A stretch of 20,910 bases of DNA from a virus. Location: IMG/VR virus record IMGVR_UViG_3300034102_001276, positions 1 to 20,910 of that record; one strand, written 5' to 3'. Shown piece after piece: positions 717 to 20,553 of the stretch; the stretch's first letter is position 1; each line of letters starts with the position of its first letter. A model generated the notes under the pieces. The model did not search any database, was not told the origin of the DNA, and worked only from the letters and a program-made list of their open reading frames with translations. The position numbers and the translations under genes were made by a program.

Positions 717-1619
717 TTAAGTGAGTCCTTCTATAGTTAAGCTGCAAGAGCTGTAATCGGGGTAAGCAATGTTGACATCAAAATCTTTATAGAACCCATA
801 GACAATCAAACTGGTGTAAATGCTTTCAGCTCCGACCCATACCAGCGGTGTAGAACGATAACTGGCGAGCAAATTAACAACATCATCAACGATATTGTTA
901 TTAATCATTAAGTTTGAGTTCATGCGTTTGGCATAAGTACGCTGCACTACTGTTGTATTGCCAAAACTGTCGGTTGTTTTTACTGAATAATCGACAATGC
1001 CAGCGGAAGCACCGTATTGAGTAGCACCCAAGTCGTAATAGTTGCCTACTACGCAATTTCCACAAGTTGCTGTGCTGCTAATGTTAATAATAGAAACAGT
1101 AATAGTGCTATTGCTGTAGGGTGGTATATCCGTCAATACTAAATCACTTTTGTAGGTGATTAATTCAAAAAAGTAGGAATACCAGTCAATAACCTGTTCC
1201 CCTCCCACCATGTTGATCGTTTTTGAGTAAACATTGGCTCCAGATACAGTTACATTAACTGTAATAGATGTGGCGTCTACGTTTAATAAGGCTAGGCTAT
1301 TAATAATGGCAACAGGCGCTAAGACAAATGTTAGCGGTGTCGCAATGCTAGTCTGCGACCCCCAAGAAGCATCAAACATTTTCCATTTATTTGTGCTGCT
1401 AATCTCCAGCCATTTAGGCGTTGTTCCTGTTAGATTTACATCAGGGCTAAAATTAGTATTTGCAACCAAACATTCATAAATCTTGTGCGTACTGACTAAA
1501 ATAACGCGAGTGCTAACTGTGTATGCTGTGGCTCCGCTCCATGCCGTGTAATCTGTTTCTGGTACGTTACTGTAAGTTAAAACGCTATTAGTGACAGTAA
1601 CGGGTCTGATTAATTTCAT
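717..1619 (-). CDS. Tail protein with carbohydrate-binding-like N-terminal region
   Basis: A 300-residue protein whose ATG overlaps the tape-measure TGA (ATGA at 1616-1619), so it is translationally coupled to it. Residues ~24-75 have aromatic spacing typical of small chitin/cellulose-binding modules (CBM5/12-like: YTAWSGATAYTVSTRVI, then IYECL, then PKWLEI). NKWKMFD follows, and the rest is Ser/Thr/Val-rich and probably beta-sheet. A CGNC pair sits near residue 187. Its place directly after the tape measure, and before the fibre-like gene, fits a distal tail or baseplate component. I recognise the general type (a conserved phage tail protein with an NKW.MFD segment) but not a precise function. 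No signal peptide or membrane segment is visible. Carbohydrate binding is inferred from the residue pattern only. Confidence 0.75.
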   Translation of the reverse strand: MKLIRPVTVTNSVLTYSNVPETDYTAWSGATAYTVSTRVILVSTHKIYECLVANTNFSPDVNLTGTTPKWLEISSTNKWKMFDASWGSQTSIATPLTFVLAPVAIINSLALLNVDATSITVNVTVSGANVYSKTINMVGGEQVIDWYSYFFELITYKSDLVLTDIPPYSNSTITVSIINISSTATCGNCVVGNYYDLGATQYGASAGIVDYSVKTTDSFGNTTVVQRTYAKRMNSNLMINNNIVDDVVNLLASYRSTPLVWVGAESIYTSLIVYGFYKDFDVNIAYPDYSSCSLTIEGLT

Positions 1620-4600
1620 GCTGCCACCACTGTTGTTATTGCTGTCCCATCTTGCGTAACATCACGCAATATTTTTGCAGTTCTTAATGTATTATGTGCA
1701 ATAGCCTGTTGCCCTGCCCTCACATCTGATCTAAGTTGACGTATTTCAACTAGTAGTTCATCCATGTTCAACAATGACTTACTTTGTCCATTACTGTAAA
1801 TTCTTGATGCTCCGGTATTTTCAATCTCTGGACCATTTTCACCAACAATTCGCCAGCCTCCTTCGTGTTGCCCACCTGATGCAAAAGCTGGCAGCGCTGC
1901 GGCTGTTGCATTGGCGTAGGCTCTTGCTGTCTGATAAGTAACAAGGGCGGCATCTGCTGCGCTCCTGTCAGCATTAGCCGTATCTGATAATCCGCTTAAT
2001 AATGCTCCGGCTGCCGCTGCTGATACAACTGCTGCATTCGCATTTACTAGGGCAGTTTGAGCATTTGTTAGATTGTTACTAATATTATTATAATTACTTG
2101 CCGCTGCATTAAGATTTTTCCTATAAGCATCTCGCGCTTTTCCATCCCAGCCTTGATCTGTATTCATATTCGCCCAATACAAATATTTTGCTTTGGCTGC
2201 TGGTAGCGCATCGGTGAATTTTGCTATGGCTGCCGTTGAGTCAGTTACAGCGGTATTGGCATTTCTTGTTCTTAGCTCCCAATCGGCTCTTGCATTTGCG
2301 TAGACCAGCGCAGAAGCGGCTGCTTGAGTGTTTGCTTGTATTAAAGCCAGATCAGCTTTTGTTGCCGCTTTATCGGCTTCTGTTGCAAGCGCAATGGCTT
2401 TTGTTGCTGCGTTTTGAGCGTTTAATGAGCCGGCTAACTGATTGATCGCTTCGGAAACAGATATAACCGCCTGATTATTGCCCAGCATTTTCTCTATTTG
2501 TGTTTTTTGATCTTGAACTGTCGCTAGGTTCTTTTGTGCTTCGGTTAAGTTGGCAACTGAATCGGTTATACCTAGTGCCGAGGTAATTTGCGATGAAGTC
2601 AGTGTAATCATTTTGCCATTTACATCAATCACAGCGCTTTTCGTACCATCAGCCGACCCGATTAAATCAACAATCTTACCATTTACTTTAGTTACCTCTT
2701 GAGTAGTGCCATCGGCTGAAATAGCTTGTGACCGTGTTAATGTAACTAATTGTCCATCAACGTCTATGACGGCACTTTTAGTGCCATCTGCTGAACCAGT
2801 TAAGGTTACTATCGCATTATTAACTCTAATGACTTCTTTCGACACCCCATTAATAGCATCAATCTGCTGTTGTGCCATGTTAACTTGAGCATCGGCATAG
2901 TCAGCAAGCTGGGTTATTGTTCCACTGGTAAGGGCTTGATCTCTTGCGTAGTCTGTAAATGACGAATAAAGTTGCTCGCTAGGCTTAGAAATATCAGTTA
3001 ATGCTTTGTCCATGCCAGCAAAGTTATCAATCGAGCCGCCAGCATTAGCCACTTTTAAGGCGGCATTTAATACAGCCTGAGCATCTGCCCTGTCTTTTCT
3101 GGTTGTTGCGTCAGTTGTTACCGTAGTCCCTGTTGCTGCTGCTCTTAATTTTTGGGCTAATGATGATAGATTACTAATTGCTTTTGATACTTCATTCACG
3201 GCTGCTGAGACGGCTTTACTTGCCAGCGCCATTGCATCTGTTACCGCTTTATTCGCTACGGCTGTTGCATCGGCTACGGCTTTATTGGCATCGGCAAGGA
3301 TGTACACGCCTTGCTGAGTTATCCTTAAACTTGCGTCCATTGCTGCCAATTCATCTTTGCGCTTTTCAGTCAATGCGCCTACTGCATTACCTGTTAATTC
3401 CATGTATTGAATGTCAAGCGATCTCTGAGTTTTTGCGATTGCCGCTACTTTTTCCGCCCCTGATTCAAGCATTGAGTAATAAGTATCGGCTGCTGAACTT
3501 AACTCAAGCAATAGACTGTAACGTTGCTGGTCAAGTGGGTTTGTCATATTCAAACCCTCAACCAGTTTTTTATAATTTTCTCTGGTTGTCGGTAAAATAA
3601 CATTGGCTTCTGCGAGTGAACCGACCAGCGTTTTTTGCAGGCGTGTTTGTTTTTCTGCGTCTGAGTAAAACTTATCAAAGAATGCTTCAAATTGCTGTTG
3701 AAATTCCTCTAGTCCTCCTGCTGCTTGAACAATCGCATCACTGACTGCAATTACATCTTTTGCTAGTAACTTAAGTCCTGATTGAGTAAGCGCATCTTTG
3801 ACAATGACTATTTCAGAGACAATGCGCACTGTTGTCTCAAGCATCCCCTCACCAAGCAACTGATACTGTTTAACAATCGAACCGAATAGCTTTGAGGACA
3901 TTTTGTCGAGTGTAGCGGAGATAACGCCATTGATTTTCTTGGCGGCAGCTTCGCCATTCATCCCCATGATATCAATACGCATAGCTGGAATAGCTGAATT
4001 GTAAACAGTCTCTCGAAGATTTGTGCCTAATTCTTTCCCTAGAAACTCACCGACACTGAGCATCGTAGTGCCTATGTTTTTAAATACCATGTTCAGCGAA
4101 TCTTGAGTGGCTGCGCTGATCTTTTTTATTTGCGTTGAATACTCGTCCTTGCTGCTTCCAAAAATGCCGCCTGACGTGTGGGTTTTAATATCCGCAAATT
4201 GATAGGCTTTAACATTTCCACCATCGGCAACAGCCCCTAGATTAGTTTTTCTAGTGCCTATGCCTTGAGCCACTATTGACTGCGTGACTTTCCCACCAAA
4301 TAAAAAGTTGCTAATGCCTGATAGTATTGGGCTAAAAAGTGACGGAATCTGACTTATAAGCCCAGTTACTCCAGTCAGCGTTGCTGCGGCTAGCTGAAAA
4401 ACCGCCATGCCGCCAGCTTGAAATAGGTTGCTAATCGTTTTTGTAATTCCAGCTTGCAGATTATTAACGCCTCGATTAATGCCTCTCAACTCAACATATT
4501 CAGACGCATGGATGTTTTTCAGCAATTCATTGGTTTTACCGATTGATTCTGACACCGCTGTTGGGTCGCCTAATACTGTTCCTGTCCCATCGTCAGTGGG

Positions 4601-6760
4601 TGGGGGTGTTCCTCCGCTGCTGCCACTGCCGCCTGAAGCCGCAAAACCTAGCCCTGCCATCAATGCCAACATAGCTGCAACACCAGCAAATCCTGCCCAG
4701 CCAGATTGAGCAAATAATTTTGATGCGCCCTCTGCGATGTTCTTGGCTGTTGCAACTGCTGACAGTGCCATGCCTTTTACTTTCATCGCCATTTCAGCAA
4801 TGCCTATCGCCACCCCCACAGCGTGAAATGCCTTTGCCCCTGCTGACTTTTCAGCAAACATTTTTGACGATGCCATCGCCAGCTGCCTTGTTCCTGTCAT
4901 CTGGTCTTGCACGTTCTTAGCGTTTAACGTGGCTTCTTCTTTGGCGTATTTCTTAAAGTTTGCTGCTCTTTCTTTTGGGTCTGCAATGCTGTTATTGAGT
5001 AACTGATTTTTGTTCAACTCAGCCATTGCTTTTGAGTTTTCAGCTAATGAATCAGTCATTGTGGTTAATGCGCCCGTCATTAAGCTGATGCCACCCAATG
5101 CCCCATCGAATATAGCGGTAGTGATGCTGCCTAAATCTTGTGTTTTAGTCTTTGTATCGTCCAATGACTTGTTATAAGCGTCCAATGCTGTCTTGGCATC
5201 TTCCTGTGCTTTCTTTTGCGCCTCTGCCCCTGAAGTCTTATCAAACTGATCTAGTAAAGGCGCTTTATCTGCACCGGACATAGGTGATTTAATACCGTCT
5301 GGGCTTGTTGTGGTCAGGGTTGAGGAATAGTAATCTCTAGCCGACATAGTAGCTTTGTTATAGCGATCAATCAGCGAGTCTAGTTGCGACTTTTCTTCCT
5401 CGTTGTGTTGCTTTTTTGCTTCCAGCGCTGCCCCTGCATCCCAAAGCGCCATCGCCTGTGCAATCATGGCTTTGTTATAGCCCTTTGATGCCAGCGTCGC
5501 TTCTTCAAGCTGTCTTTTAGTTTTTGATTGCTCGATATTGTTTAACGTCAAAGCCTTCAAAGTGTCATCGAAAGACTTGGCGAGTGAGGCTTCTGCTCTT
5601 GCTGCTTCTTTTGCGGCTTTGTCATGCTCTTTTTTAGATTGTAGTGTTTCCTCTAAGACTTTCTTTTCTTGATGGGTAGAATTTAACAGCTTATCCGTTG
5701 CAGCCGTTTCTTGATTTTTAGCGACAATAACATCATGAGTGGTTTTAATTACTCCCTCTCTTTGCTTGATAAAATCAGATAGTCGGTTTTTTTCACCCTC
5801 CAATGAGTTACCTGTTAATGCGCCCGCTACTTGCCATGCCGCACCCGAAATGCCACCTTGACTCATGGCGGATATTTTGGCTTTTGAGCTGACAATCTTA
5901 TTATTGATTTCCTCTAATGCCAGAAACTCCTTACCAACGCCAGCGATTGAGTCTTTGAAATAATCCAGCCATGCTGTCCAGTTGCTAACAACTGTTTTTA
6001 AGTACCCCTCACTTTTATCATTTAATAAGGTATCTTCAAATGAGTGCCAAGCATCGGATAAACTGCTTATTTTTCCGTTCAATGTCTCCATTGCATTAGC
6101 ATTGCTTCCTGCTGCCGCCTCCCCCATTTTGACAATTAACTTGTCGATCATATCAACCGTAATTGTTCCTTTGGCTGACATTTCTGAAAGCTCTGCTGCG
6201 TTCTTGCCTGTGATTTCGCCAAGCAATCGCATAACTGGAACACCACGCTCCATTAGCACGACCATATCCTCCATTTGCAGCTTGCCCTTTGAATGGGCTT
6301 GACCTAATTGGAGTGCGATAGATGTTAATGTCTCTTGACTGCCTCCCAGCTTTGACGCTTGATCGGTCAAGGATTGCATGACTTGATGGGTGGGTTTTAT
6401 GCCCATGTTTTGCAGCATGATAAAGGTCTGAGTTAGTCCTTTTATCTCGTACGGTGTATCTTTTGCAAAAGTTAAGATCGCATTGAAAGCCCCTTTCGCT
6501 CCCTGTGCTGAACCCATAACAGACTTTAAACTAGCTCTTAATGATTCCATCTCTCGATTAGTATCAAGTACAGACTTCGCCAATGCGCCCAAACCAAGGC
6601 CAGCAAATAAGCCTGTTAAGCCCTGCATTGATTTCTCAACTGAGGACATAGCCTTGGCAGTCTTACCACCAGCCGTAGATAGTTTTTCTAACTCAGCCGA
6701 GGCTTTGGTAACGTCTGTTGCATCGACTTTTATGCCGAGTGTTGCCATATCCATCGCCAT
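1616..6760 (-). CDS. Tail tape measure protein
   Basis: At 1,714 residues this is by far the largest gene in the window. The N terminus (ATLGIKVDATDVTKASAELE) and residues ~60-260 (FAKDTPYEIKGLTQTFIML, LQMEDMVVLMERGVPVMRLL, LNGKISSLSDAWHSFEDTLL) match the phage tape-measure domain of the TIGR02675 type. A hydrophobic Ala/Gly segment lies near residues 685-715 and a second around 775-830, as expected for a protein ejected through the cell envelope. The rest is Ala-rich helix with two repeat blocks listed separately. The C terminus carries ASGGQHEGGWRIVGENGPE, a motif common at the end of such proteins, then a helix (ELLVEIRQLRSDVRAGQQAI). ATG at 6760 has a GGAG 7 nt upstream. At ~0.15 nm per residue the tail would be about 250 nm. 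The gene lies between the G/GT chaperones and the tail-tip genes, as in lambda-like phages. Confidence 0.96.
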   Translation of the reverse strand: MAMDMATLGIKVDATDVTKASAELEKLSTAGGKTAKAMSSVEKSMQGLTGLFAGLGLGALAKSVLDTNREMESLRASLKSVMGSAQGAKGAFNAILTFAKDTPYEIKGLTQTFIMLQNMGIKPTHQVMQSLTDQASKLGGSQETLTSIALQLGQAHSKGKLQMEDMVVLMERGVPVMRLLGEITGKNAAELSEMSAKGTITVDMIDKLIVKMGEAAAGSNANAMETLNGKISSLSDAWHSFEDTLLNDKSEGYLKTVVSNWTAWLDYFKDSIAGVGKEFLALEEINNKIVSSKAKISAMSQGGISGAAWQVAGALTGNSLEGEKNRLSDFIKQREGVIKTTHDVIVAKNQETAATDKLLNSTHQEKKVLEETLQSKKEHDKAAKEAARAEASLAKSFDDTLKALTLNNIEQSKTKRQLEEATLASKGYNKAMIAQAMALWDAGAALEAKKQHNEEEKSQLDSLIDRYNKATMSARDYYSSTLTTTSPDGIKSPMSGADKAPLLDQFDKTSGAEAQKKAQEDAKTALDAYNKSLDDTKTKTQDLGSITTAIFDGALGGISLMTGALTTMTDSLAENSKAMAELNKNQLLNNSIADPKERAANFKKYAKEEATLNAKNVQDQMTGTRQLAMASSKMFAEKSAGAKAFHAVGVAIGIAEMAMKVKGMALSAVATAKNIAEGASKLFAQSGWAGFAGVAAMLALMAGLGFAASGGSGSSGGTPPPTDDGTGTVLGDPTAVSESIGKTNELLKNIHASEYVELRGINRGVNNLQAGITKTISNLFQAGGMAVFQLAAATLTGVTGLISQIPSLFSPILSGISNFLFGGKVTQSIVAQGIGTRKTNLGAVADGGNVKAYQFADIKTHTSGGIFGSSKDEYSTQIKKISAATQDSLNMVFKNIGTTMLSVGEFLGKELGTNLRETVYNSAIPAMRIDIMGMNGEAAAKKINGVISATLDKMSSKLFGSIVKQYQLLGEGMLETTVRIVSEIVIVKDALTQSGLKLLAKDVIAVSDAIVQAAGGLEEFQQQFEAFFDKFYSDAEKQTRLQKTLVGSLAEANVILPTTRENYKKLVEGLNMTNPLDQQRYSLLLELSSAADTYYSMLESGAEKVAAIAKTQRSLDIQYMELTGNAVGALTEKRKDELAAMDASLRITQQGVYILADANKAVADATAVANKAVTDAMALASKAVSAAVNEVSKAISNLSSLAQKLRAAATGTTVTTDATTRKDRADAQAVLNAALKVANAGGSIDNFAGMDKALTDISKPSEQLYSSFTDYARDQALTSGTITQLADYADAQVNMAQQQIDAINGVSKEVIRVNNAIVTLTGSADGTKSAVIDVDGQLVTLTRSQAISADGTTQEVTKVNGKIVDLIGSADGTKSAVIDVNGKMITLTSSQITSALGITDSVANLTEAQKNLATVQDQKTQIEKMLGNNQAVISVSEAINQLAGSLNAQNAATKAIALATEADKAATKADLALIQANTQAAASALVYANARADWELRTRNANTAVTDSTAAIAKFTDALPAAKAKYLYWANMNTDQGWDGKARDAYRKNLNAAASNYNNISNNLTNAQTALVNANAAVVSAAAAGALLSGLSDTANADRSAADAALVTYQTARAYANATAAALPAFASGGQHEGGWRIVGENGPEIENTGASRIYSNGQSKSLLNMDELLVEIRQLRSDVRAGQQAIAHNTLRTAKILRDVTQDGTAITTVVAA
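2570..2815 (-). repeat. Alternating 21/25-residue repeats inside the tape measure protein
   Basis: Residues ~1316-1397 of the tape measure consist of four tandem units of alternating length: AIVTLTGSADGTKSAVIDVDG (21, cited as unit 1), QLVTLT...VTKVNG (25), KIVDLIGSADGTKSAVIDVNG (21, unit 3) and KMITLT...(25). The long period is 46 residues (138 bp). Each unit is a hydrophobic beta-like strand, then a polar ADGT turn, then a second strand ending in (D/N)G. Unlike the surrounding helical sequence, the block looks like a small beta structure. Confidence 0.8.
3164..3295 (-). repeat. Four 11-residue (hendecad) repeats inside the tape measure protein
   Basis: Residues ~1156-1199 read as four consecutive 11-mers: ADANKAVADAT, AVANKAVTDAM, ALASKAVSAAV and NEVSKAISNLS. 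Each has (N/S)KA(V/I) in the same register. Eleven-residue periodicity is typical of right-handed or straight coiled coils, and 11-residue phasing fits a long rod-like tape measure. The DNA copies have drifted, so the repeat shows at the protein level rather than as recent duplication. Confidence 0.75.
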
Positions 6761-6761
6761 A

Positions 6762-7127
6762 CTATTTCTCCGCTTGCTGTTTCTGGTAATGGGTCAAAAA
6801 AACACCGTCTAGTTGTTTGATAATGTCTACTTCTTGCGCTGTGACTGACTTATTCGTTAGTCGATTCCATGCGTCAAGTTCTGTATAGCTGATCGGATTT
6901 AATGTGTAGCCGTTACTTGTCCGACCATTATTCAATTCGTGGAAATCACGCCAGATAAATTCTAGTGTCTCCGGAAAAGGCACTGGCTCAAGTTGCTTTG
7001 GCGTTATCCCTGTTTGTCTCTCTACTGATTCAAGGTGATGACGTAATGAACCGCCATCACTTTGCTTTTCACTTAACGCTAATTCGTTCTCAGCAAACAG
7101 CAATAACTCTGCTATTTGCTCTTGATA
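6762..7127 (-). CDS. Tail assembly chaperone T domain (frameshift extension of the G-like protein, GT product)
   Basis: This frame is -1 relative to the upstream chaperone gene and follows on from its slippery site. Read from the shift it begins YQEQIAELLLFAENELALSE and gives 121 residues ending QKQQAEK. The fusion with the first 131 residues of the upstream gene would be 252 aa. A separate start could only be TTG at 7103, which lies in the loop of the frameshift hairpin and has no Shine-Dalgarno sequence; independent translation is therefore unlikely. In lambda, gpGT binds the tape measure through the T domain and recruits tail tube subunits, and this gene lies directly before the tape measure, as expected. 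The sequence itself (FPETLEFIWRDFHELNNGR) contains a segment typical of short phage tail chaperone C domains. Confidence 0.85.
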   Translation of the reverse strand, partial: YQEQIAELLLFAENELALSEKQSDGGSLRHHLESVERQTGITPKQLEPVPFPETLEFIWRDFHELNNGRTSNGYTLNPISYTELDAWNRLTNKSVTAQEVDIIKQLDGVFLTHYQKQQAEK

Positions 7128-7133
7128 AAATTT
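7092..7133 (-). promoter_or_regulatory. Programmed -1 ribosomal frameshift signal (slippery site plus hairpin)
   Basis: On the minus strand the G-like frame reads TCA AAT TTT ATC, which contains the canonical X XXY YYZ heptamer A AAT TTT (plus-strand 7127-7133). After a 6-nt spacer comes an 11-bp stem, AGCAAATAGCA (7120-7110), a 7-nt loop (7109-7103), then TGCTGTTTGCT (7102-7092), with one G.U pair. The zero-frame stop TAG (7114-7112) lies within the 5' arm. Spacer length and stem size fall in the range known for -1 frameshift elements. The -1 frame is open through the site and continues for 121 codons. Confidence 0.9.
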
Positions 7134-7519
7134 GACATTAAGTCCGATGCAGCCGATACCTGATCTCTGACCTCAGGGTTCATTCTGCATAATGCCAGTG
7201 CCATGTCTTTGGTGTATTCAACGGGCTTTCCAGCATCATTAAGACCTTTCCAGCCGATGATGGTGATTGCCGCCAACTGAATACCAAAGGCTTCATCTTC
7301 TTCCACTTTGCGATAATCATCTTTGCCCTTTTTCAATAGCATACGTTCACGATCTCGCATGTTGTTGACGGCTTTTCGTGTCCACTCTTTTACGGTGTCA
7401 GCATGCTTGCCGAGTACCGTAATGAAGAAGCCCTCACCAATACCTGTGGCTTCTGGAATGAACTCGAACTCATAACCGTTTTCGGAGGTTGATGATAAAT
7501 CTAAACTTGATAATTCCAT
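7112..7519 (-). CDS. Tail assembly chaperone, lambda gpG-like
   Basis: A 135-residue acidic/helical protein lying between the tail tube gene and the tape measure, the position where tailed phages keep the G/GT chaperone pair. It begins MELSSLDLSSTSENGYEFEF and contains EWTRKAVNNMRDRERMLLKK and a GWKGL..AGKPVEYTKD..ALCRMNPEVRDQV segment. That pattern (a charged helix, then W.G.., then a P-E-V/I-R-x-Q-V helix) is usual for such tail chaperones. Translation normally stops at TAG 7114-7112; a fraction of ribosomes should shift -1 at A AAT TTT and make the longer GT form. No motif for any enzymatic activity is present. It should act in the cytoplasm during tail assembly and be absent from the virion. 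Confidence 0.85.
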   Translation of the reverse strand: MELSSLDLSSTSENGYEFEFIPEATGIGEGFFITVLGKHADTVKEWTRKAVNNMRDRERMLLKKGKDDYRKVEEDEAFGIQLAAITIIGWKGLNDAGKPVEYTKDMALALCRMNPEVRDQVSAASDLMSNFIKSK

Positions 7520-7583: not shown

Positions 7584-8798
7584 TTAAACAGCCAATGAAT
7601 CTTGAACGGATAATATAGTTTGGTCGTTAGCCAAAGCCGGGCCACCATTCATATTGATACGAGCAGTAAATGGATAAGTCCTAACGATTGCCTTGTCGCC
7701 ATCGTCTTTGCCGTCACCGTCCAACGTGATGTTGGATAGATTGAAAGAAACGAAGTCGGAAGATGCGGTGGTGTTGTCCTCGATAACCGCTACCAAATTG
7801 ACTTGTGTTGCTGCATCAAATAAGCCACTCAATACAGCGTCTTGATAGAAAGCTGTGAATGAGCCAGATACTTCGATTGAACCCCGTTGAATATCGGGTG
7901 CTACGTTTGAGCCAACGACTGCGCCCATGCCTGCCGCTTTGCCATCGATAGCCAAAGTCAAGCCAGTGATGTTAGTAATTGCTGCACCATTAACAATCAA
8001 AATGCCGTTGATAGCTGCCAATGGATTTGATGAAGTTTCAGCAGTTGGGGTGGTTAGTATGCGAGTGGCACCAGTAGTGCGGTTAAGACCTACGCCCGTG
8101 ACTGCCAAAGTTGCATTGCCTGTTGACGGCAACCCAATATCCAACTTGCCGAACATCACATCCGAATAGACTTCACTTTGTGAAATATCCGATTGCCAAT
8201 CTTCAACTGTCCAATAGTCTTTTGTATGACCTGTTATCGGTACAACTGATTTTTTGCCCGGCAATGCTATGGTGCAAGCTGTGCCTGAGCCAGCTGTCAT
8301 TGTGCTGCCGTTAAGGGTTTTAACAGTAATGACAGTATTTGTGATGTTAGTGATTAAAAGGTTTTTGCCGATACAATCAGCATTTAAACCTGTAGCGACT
8401 GAGATACGAATAACATCGCCAATCTTAAAGCCACCTGATGTTAACAAGCCTGTGCCTGTTAGCGTGTAAGCGCCTGCAACACCACCAACGGCTAATGCTA
8501 AACCAGTTAATGAAGTTGTAGCAGCAAAGTCTTTGCGTAATACTGAAGCGATAACTGTTGCATAAGTACCAGCCGATAAAACACCGTTTAAGGCCGTATC
8601 GACTGAACGTAAGCCGTGAGTCTTACCAGTCGATTGCTGATGACTAGCAATTTCGTTGTTAGCGTAAGTGTCTTTTTTAAGGTTGTTGTTTGATTGTTCC
8701 CGTCTTAAAATCTGACCGCCTGAACCTGATGCCGCTGTTCCGAGTACAGTCTGTTTTTTAATCGAGACTTGTTTGTTGATGCCTTGTGCGATTGCCAT
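7584..8798 (-). CDS. Major tail tube protein
   Basis: A 404-residue Thr/Gly/Ala-rich protein starting MAIAQGINKQVSIKKQTVLG, a pattern characteristic of phage tail tube subunits (helical start, then K.Q.tlG.a..g..gq..rR). Residues ~95-175 contain an extra GGVAGAYTLTGTGLL...FKIGDVIRI...VITVKTLNG block that looks like an Ig-like or other beta domain inserted in the tube fold. The C-terminal half has the expected strands (GSIEVSGSFTAFYQD, LVAVIEDN). AGGA lies 7 nt upstream of ATG. Position after the terminator protein and before the G/GT genes supports the call. At 404 aa it is longer than minimal tube proteins (about 200-250 aa), which the inserted domain would explain. Confidence 0.88.
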   Translation of the reverse strand: MAIAQGINKQVSIKKQTVLGTAASGSGGQILRREQSNNNLKKDTYANNEIASHQQSTGKTHGLRSVDTALNGVLSAGTYATVIASVLRKDFAATTSLTGLALAVGGVAGAYTLTGTGLLTSGGFKIGDVIRISVATGLNADCIGKNLLITNITNTVITVKTLNGSTMTAGSGTACTIALPGKKSVVPITGHTKDYWTVEDWQSDISQSEVYSDVMFGKLDIGLPSTGNATLAVTGVGLNRTTGATRILTTPTAETSSNPLAAINGILIVNGAAITNITGLTLAIDGKAAGMGAVVGSNVAPDIQRGSIEVSGSFTAFYQDAVLSGLFDAATQVNLVAVIEDNTTASSDFVSFNLSNITLDGDGKDDGDKAIVRTYPFTARINMNGGPALANDQTILSVQDSLAV

Positions 8799-19968: not shown

Positions 19969-20262
19969 ATGAATTACGAAATACACACTACTGAAGTTTT
20001 TGACAAATGGACTGCCAAGTTGAAAGACCGTCAAGCAGCTATGGCAATAGCGTTGCGTTTGGCTAGGGTTGCTAGTGGTAACTTTGGTGATACTAAAGTC
20101 ATTGGTGATGGTGTGAGTGAACTGCGTATTTTTGTTGGCCCAGGCTATCGAATTTATTACACTATCCGTAATAACGAAATTGTTATATTGCTGTGTGGTG
20201 GTGATAAATCTTCCCAACAAAACGATATTAAACAAGCCAAAGAACTGGCTAAAAACTTGTGA
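19969..20262 (+). CDS. Type II toxin, RelE/ParE superfamily (HigB-like, 'addiction module killer protein')
   Basis: 97 residues. GDTKVIGDGVSELRIFVGPG, then YRIYYTIRNNEIVILLCGGD and KSSQQNDIKQAKELAKNL are hallmarks of the addiction-module killer protein subfamily (TIGR02683/COG3657), in the RelE/ParE fold. Conserved R53, Y60, R61 and the GGDK (77-80) patch are in place. Relatives mostly cleave mRNA on the ribosome, but the exact target is not known for this one. It is the first gene of the pair, as in HigBA modules. There is no Shine-Dalgarno sequence before the ATG, and the promoter places the RNA 5' end at the start codon, so translation may be leaderless. It reads against the phage genes. 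Confidence 0.93.
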   Translation: MNYEIHTTEVFDKWTAKLKDRQAAMAIALRLARVASGNFGDTKVIGDGVSELRIFVGPGYRIYYTIRNNEIVILLCGGDKSSQQNDIKQAKELAKNL

Positions 20263-20271
20263 GACTTCCCG

Positions 20272-20553
20272 ATGAAAACTGAAACAAAACTTTATAACCC
20301 TTTCGATCACTTGTTGACTCAAGCGGATATGGGCGACTACTTGACGCAAGCATTTTTGGATGATGACCCTGCTGTTTTTGTTGCTGCACTGGGTCATGCT
20401 GCCAAAGCCAAAGGTATTGCCCAACTTGCTACTGATACCGGGCTTAACCGTGAGAGCCTTTACAAAGCCTTGTCCGGTAAAACACAGCCTAAATGGGATA
20501 CTGTGCAGCGCATCATCAAGGCTCTGAATATTAACTTGCATATTGCCGCTTAA
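20272..20553 (+). CDS. HTH antitoxin ('addiction module antidote', TIGR02684-like)
   Basis: 93 residues. The N terminus (MKTETKLYNPFDHLLTQADM, GDYLTQAFLDDDPAVFVAAL) is typical of this antidote family and probably wraps the toxin. Residues ~48-80 form an XRE-type helix-turn-helix (GIAQLATDTGLNRESLYKAL, then SGKTQPKWDTVQRIIKAL). It should neutralise the toxin and bind the operator palindrome at 19943-19960 as a repressor, usually with the toxin as co-repressor. The gene starts 9 nt after the toxin stop, and its own stop lies 2 nt from the end of the convergent 47-aa ORF, so the cassette is fitted tightly into the operon. No terminator is visible after it. Confidence 0.92.
   Translation: MKTETKLYNPFDHLLTQADMGDYLTQAFLDDDPAVFVAALGHAAKAKGIAQLATDTGLNRESLYKALSGKTQPKWDTVQRIIKALNINLHIAA

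Follow-up and report, generated by a model that had tools for sequence, protein, structure and literature searches.

Bacteriophage lambda reportedly makes its tail assembly chaperones G and G-T by a programmed -1 frameshift, in work credited to Levin (1993) and Xu (2004, 2013). Its slippery motif is G_GGA_AAG. Frameshifting of the G/G-T kind is widely conserved among tailed phages (PMC5009743), and annotated joined chaperone genes number in the thousands (PMC10885494). In an HK97-like chaperone cluster, 6-7% shifting has been measured (PMC3711429). Escherichia phage Seurat (KM236243) carries a 268-aa fusion, deposited as a joined CDS with its G part noted as 'ribosomal slippage', and this fusion is matched by both domains of the locus described here.

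The window, by which we mean the whole 20.9-kb viral contig analysed, encodes terminase, portal, Mu F-like protein, major head protein, tail terminator, tail tube, G, T, tape measure and lysozyme (Table 1). On the strand opposite to these phage structural genes, at 19969-20553 (+), lies a toxin-antitoxin pair comprising a Gp49-like toxin and an HI1420-type antidote. The lambda-type order of tail tube, G, T and tape measure is present, recognized through Phage_tube_2, PHROG 313, Phage_TAC_18 and TMP_3. As in lambda (PMC5009743), the -1 shift would fall near the end of G, with T made only as a fusion. Unlike lambda, the window uses A_AAU_UUU and has a covarying hairpin 6 nt downstream. Its G matched a different chaperone family (PHROG 313) from that of lambda G, and no similarity between the two proteins was seen in the searches made.

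Table 1. Features of the G/T region in window coordinates
Feature	Coordinates	Strand	Basis or remark
Tail tube protein, next gene upstream	7584..8798	-	Pfam Phage_tube_2, E 4.5e-17
G, tail assembly chaperone, zero frame, 135 aa	7112..7519	-	PHROG 313 'Tail assembly chaperone', E 6e-15
Slippery heptamer A_AAT_TTT (Asn-Phe codons AAT TTT)	7127..7133	-	In frame; invariant in 22/22 close relatives
6-nt spacer ATCAAG	7121..7126	-	Between heptamer and stem
Putative stimulatory hairpin, 11-12 bp, holds zero-frame TAG	7092..7120	-	Fold, codon resampling, covariation
Stem 5' arm AGCAAATAGCA	7120-7110	-	Contains the TAG stop
Hairpin loop	7109-7103	-	
Stem 3' arm TGCTGTTTGCT	7102-7092	-	One G.U pair with the 5' arm
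G stop TAG	7114-7112	-	Read from sequence
T, -1 frame extension, 121 codons after heptamer + stop	6762..7133	-	Pfam PF23812 (Phage_TAC_18), E 1.9e-16
Tape measure protein, next gene downstream	1616..6760	-	Pfam TMP_3, E 1e-33

The match of T to Phage_TAC_18 scores 60.4 bits against a gathering cut-off of 27, and T is colinear with the T of relatives. An AlphaFold model of G (pLDDT 87), compared with BFVD, hits phage tape-measure chaperones. Together with the predicted model of T (pLDDT 85) it leads to one and the same protein, the Seurat fusion named 'tape measure chaperone', with query-normalised TM scores of 0.68 for G and 0.81 for T. Searching by sequence for solved structures of G and T returned chance hits only, and Foldseek of G against the PDB gave nothing useful, with a single weak VIA-align match (Z 2.8). 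The chaperone reading, already put forward in an earlier note on this DNA, is supported by family membership, the position between the tube and tape measure genes, the heptamer, the frame relation and the covarying stem in relatives. Membership of these families suggests the tape measure and tube proteins as binding partners of G and G-T.

In the zero frame of the minus strand, G ends with ATG TCA AAT TTT ATC AAG AGC AAA TAG, which places an X_XXY_YYZ heptamer in the zero frame inside the G/T overlap, exactly where the earlier note had it. Heptamers of this form occur in frame at 18 of 3838 codon positions in the structural genes of the window; AAATTTT does so once among them, at the 3' end of G. 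In E. coli, both A_AAU_UUU and A_AAU_UUC fall into the H_HH.U_UU.Y class of efficient slip sites (PMC4066793). The E. coli rules may not fit the host of this phage exactly. A literature search combining AAATTTT, frameshift and phage found only an unrelated gene. As in Seurat, the shift would occur at the Asn-Phe end of G, but the Seurat site is AAT TTT TTC TAA, that is T_TTT_TTC, and the 64 nt downstream of it fold weakly (-3.5 kcal/mol). Joining the frames by script yields a 252-aa fusion whose stop ends at 6762, with the tape measure directly after it (ATG at 6760, GGAG a short way 5' of it); the length of the -1 frame and of the fusion had been given correctly before.

Judged from sequence, the window very probably encodes a programmed -1 ribosomal frameshift that makes the tail assembly chaperones G and G-T. 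The evidence lies in the heptamer and frame relation in 22/22 close relatives, the pinned site, startless T frames, covariation, codon nulls and the match to the Seurat fusion. Most ribosomes would translate G and terminate at the TAG. In a small share, the hairpin 6 nt downstream would stall the ribosome while Asn-tRNA reads AAU and Phe-tRNA reads UUU; both tRNAs would re-pair one base back, on AAA and UUU, and translation would continue in the -1 frame to produce G-T. On the lambda model, the tape measure protein would be bound by many copies of G and few of G-T, and T would bring in the tail tube subunit, allowing a tail of the proper length to assemble.

Comparison with close relatives locates the shift. 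In 22 viral contigs whose G is 87-100% identical, AAATTTT stands at the same codon in every case; near copies are numerous among the contigs compared. The -1 frame runs on into T in 21 (L021 reaches the contig end), and the remaining one, L017, carries an insert. The earlier note had expected the reading to fail if relatives lacked both the heptamer and an overlapping -1 frame; no such relative occurred in the window's clade. The T frame opens just 9 nt before the heptamer in L003, L005-L008, L010 and L019, and 0-6 nt before it in L065, L049, L059, L061, L078 and L095, so the shift is pinned to the heptamer or the few codons after it. Likewise, the -1-frame stop 9 nt before the heptamer in many close relatives confines the shift to the last ten codons of G.

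These frames also bear on whether T is a separate gene, with its own TTG start at 7103-7101 or translated by termination-reinitiation after the G stop. The TTG is suitably placed in the window and some relatives, and in the deposited records of relatives T figures as an ORF of its own or is missing. Counter to this, the TTG is gone in L008, L010, L012, L016, L019, L023, L108, L061 and L062, where T is intact, and in the window it is preceded only by a weak AGAG, 3 nt away. ATG, GTG and TTG are all absent from the first ~50 T codons of L010, L019, L108, L093, L095 and L070; ordinary independent initiation of T is thus excluded in L010, L019 and L108. We rejected an independent start, the TTG being unconserved and several T frames startless, and consider a separate T gene very improbable. 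The earlier note had placed this TTG in the hairpin loop, which holds for its first base; the other two lie outside. With startless frames, and T in a frame different from that of G in all but the L017 allele, the sequences are those of a T made only as a fusion. One startless relative, L108 (CAILCX010000089.1), is the sole one from the bacterial genome search and belongs to a Methylobacter MAG, which hints at methanotrophs as possible hosts of these phages.

In L017 (IMGVR_UViG_3300046002_000454, 2887-4139), ~1 kb is inserted directly after the retained heptamer. The insert contains an HNH endonuclease ORF (2956-3465), and at 3414-4139 a divergent G-like domain is fused in frame to T. This allele, known from that one contig, would give G and G'-T without any frameshift. 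A group I intron was considered; Rfam finds none. Wherever else T can be identified in a relative, it is out of the zero frame of the preceding G.

Downstream of the heptamer, the hairpin is as the earlier note drew it: an 11-bp stem with one G.U pair and a 7-nt loop, beginning after a 6-nt spacer, with the TAG in its 5' arm. ViennaRNA prefers a 12-bp version with a 5-nt loop and a second G.U. Most 3' stimulators have their 5' end 6-9 nt away (PMC5009743). Hairpin-stimulated versions had been described as less often documented, which is too strong, since three of five phage clusters among the -1 candidates of Sharma et al. carry a conserved hairpin (PMC4066793). Folding, proposed beforehand as a check, gave an MFE of -15.8 kcal/mol for 7133-7080, against -7.7 +/- 2.3 for dinucleotide shuffles (z -3.5; 0/200 as good). 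Because T codes across the stem, a second null resampled T codons with the codon usage of the window. Under this synonymous recoding the mean was -6.1 +/- 2.7 (p 0.0035, the energy being reached in 0.35%), and the ten core stem pairs were attained in 0.5% of recodings (p 0.005).

The comparative check, likewise proposed beforehand, found compensatory changes in the stem alongside the invariant heptamer. Across sixteen distinct sequences, L061 and L062 included, 93% of the 12 pairs are kept, against at most 58% when the partner arm is slid as a control, and the covariation was matched in 0/500 shuffles. One pair appears as A-U (8), C-G (6), G-C (1) and U-G (1), another as G-C (14) and A-U (2). 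L061 and L062 keep the hairpin at an identity to the window of only 41-46% in G and 35-42% in T.

Could the frameshift be real and the hairpin not its stimulator, arising instead as a by-product of the T sequence or serving RNA stability? Arguing for this, conserved residues account for much of the pairing: the synonymous null alone pairs 6.7 of 10, and stem conservation partly follows from the T amino acids. In addition, the more distant -1 relatives L059, L095, L102, L049 and L070 have no significant stem in the codon-resampling test. Against it stand the compensatory changes, the constant 6-nt distance to the heptamer and synonymous choice favouring pairing in 17/17 rows (p 0.001-0.056 each, values that must not be multiplied, as the rows share kinship). 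An intrinsic terminator was rejected, the U run being missing after the stem, and Rfam matched no known RNA family in the whole window. We regard a hairpin without a stimulatory role as unlikely. The hairpin, which we favour as a stimulator, is a lineage feature, absent from the five distant relatives just named: a covarying structure 5-9 nt downstream was found only in the window clade, L061, L062 and L108.

Beyond this clade, 63 further loci were examined with a T profile, which located T in 61; the other two contigs were too short. Relative to G, T lies in the -1 frame at 32 loci, in the +1 frame at 29 and at no locus in the zero frame. Among the -1 loci the site is AAATTTT, AAATTTC, AAAAAAA or, one codon upstream, GGGAAAC. 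As in the window, the T homologue lies in the -1 frame of the adjoining upstream gene in the TAC_18 phages Mannheimia 1152AP2, Pasteurella Pm86, Pseudomonas ZQG1 and PMBT14, Vibrio vB_VhaS-tm and Roseobacter CRP-6, although their sites differ from that of the window. In nine cultured phages the T homologue lies in the -1 frame; the overlap of eight holds GGGAAAG, GGGAAAC, TTTTTTC or a different heptamer, and that of the ninth, CRP-6, GGATTTT. In the CRP-6 overlap (L114 1440-1500) X_XXY_YYZ is absent, and the site is apparently a non-canonical G_GAT_TTT.

The +1 members (L047, L048 and most of L072-L107; for example, L047 2830-2872) comprise 27 viral contigs together with Limnohabitans phage DC31 and Curvibacter phage P26059A. 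Their G and T are homologous to those of the window, and all 29 have AAY_TTT_CG(A/C) at the same Asn-Phe codons where the window would slip by -1. This pair is invariant in the G alignments used, which do not include the AAAAAAA members L070 and L075, both without it. Most +1 loci have the site bounded by a +1-frame stop immediately before it and by the zero-frame stop 12 nt further on, which confines the shift to ~five codons. A similar motif is the PA-X +1 site of influenza A, UCC_UUU_CGU (PMC3498833). The +1 frame could formally be reached by a -2 shift instead; the PA-X authors knew of a single natural -2 example, the G-T of phage Mu (PMC3498833).

The trees intermix the two directions. 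P26059A (+1) groups with L095 and L102 (-1, AAATTTT), inside or beside the larger +1 group, with support of 97/96 in the G tree and 100/99 in the fusion tree; long branches occur elsewhere in both trees, and this grouping rests on starred branches. Each tree needs at least two direction changes. We therefore think it likely that the direction of frameshifting switched at least twice at the same Asn-Phe pair, between -1 tandem slippage on A_AAU_UUY and a +1 slip by Phe-tRNA on UUU_CG(A/C), with the fusion remaining colinear. To slip forward at codons where relatives slip back is unusual, and such a switch contradicts the generalisation that direction is conserved among orthologues using ribosomal frameshifting (PMC3711429). 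The literature searched, which left many subscription papers outside, held no report of a direction switch in tail chaperones.

A further alternative is that transcriptional slippage on the TTTT run changes the frame, as mRNA indels would yield either frame and the site does have four T. Runs that usually support transcriptional slippage are far longer than four T. Moreover, TTT is followed by CG in the +1 relatives, the site of the GGGAAAC relatives lacks a T run, and the hairpin spacing fixed at 6 nt is typical of ribosomal stimulators. The short run, its absence in some relatives and the fixed spacing all disfavour this explanation, which we hold to be extremely improbable.

For ribosomal frameshifting, the window is a well-supported further case of a known recoding event, the related phage Seurat being already annotated with slippage, and the covarying putative stimulator of the window makes a compact test construct. 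There is also a systematic gap in annotation: in most of the cultured relatives inspected, the deposited T is a separate ORF or is left out, and in the cultured phages L047, L113, L117, L118 and L120 the annotation skips T between G and the next annotated gene. PMC3711429 takes mixed directions as a rule for inferring mechanism, ribosomal or transcriptional; the family counsels caution with such inference. The family carries more weight than the window and allows one to ask how the sign of a frameshift can change while a ratio-controlled fusion persists.
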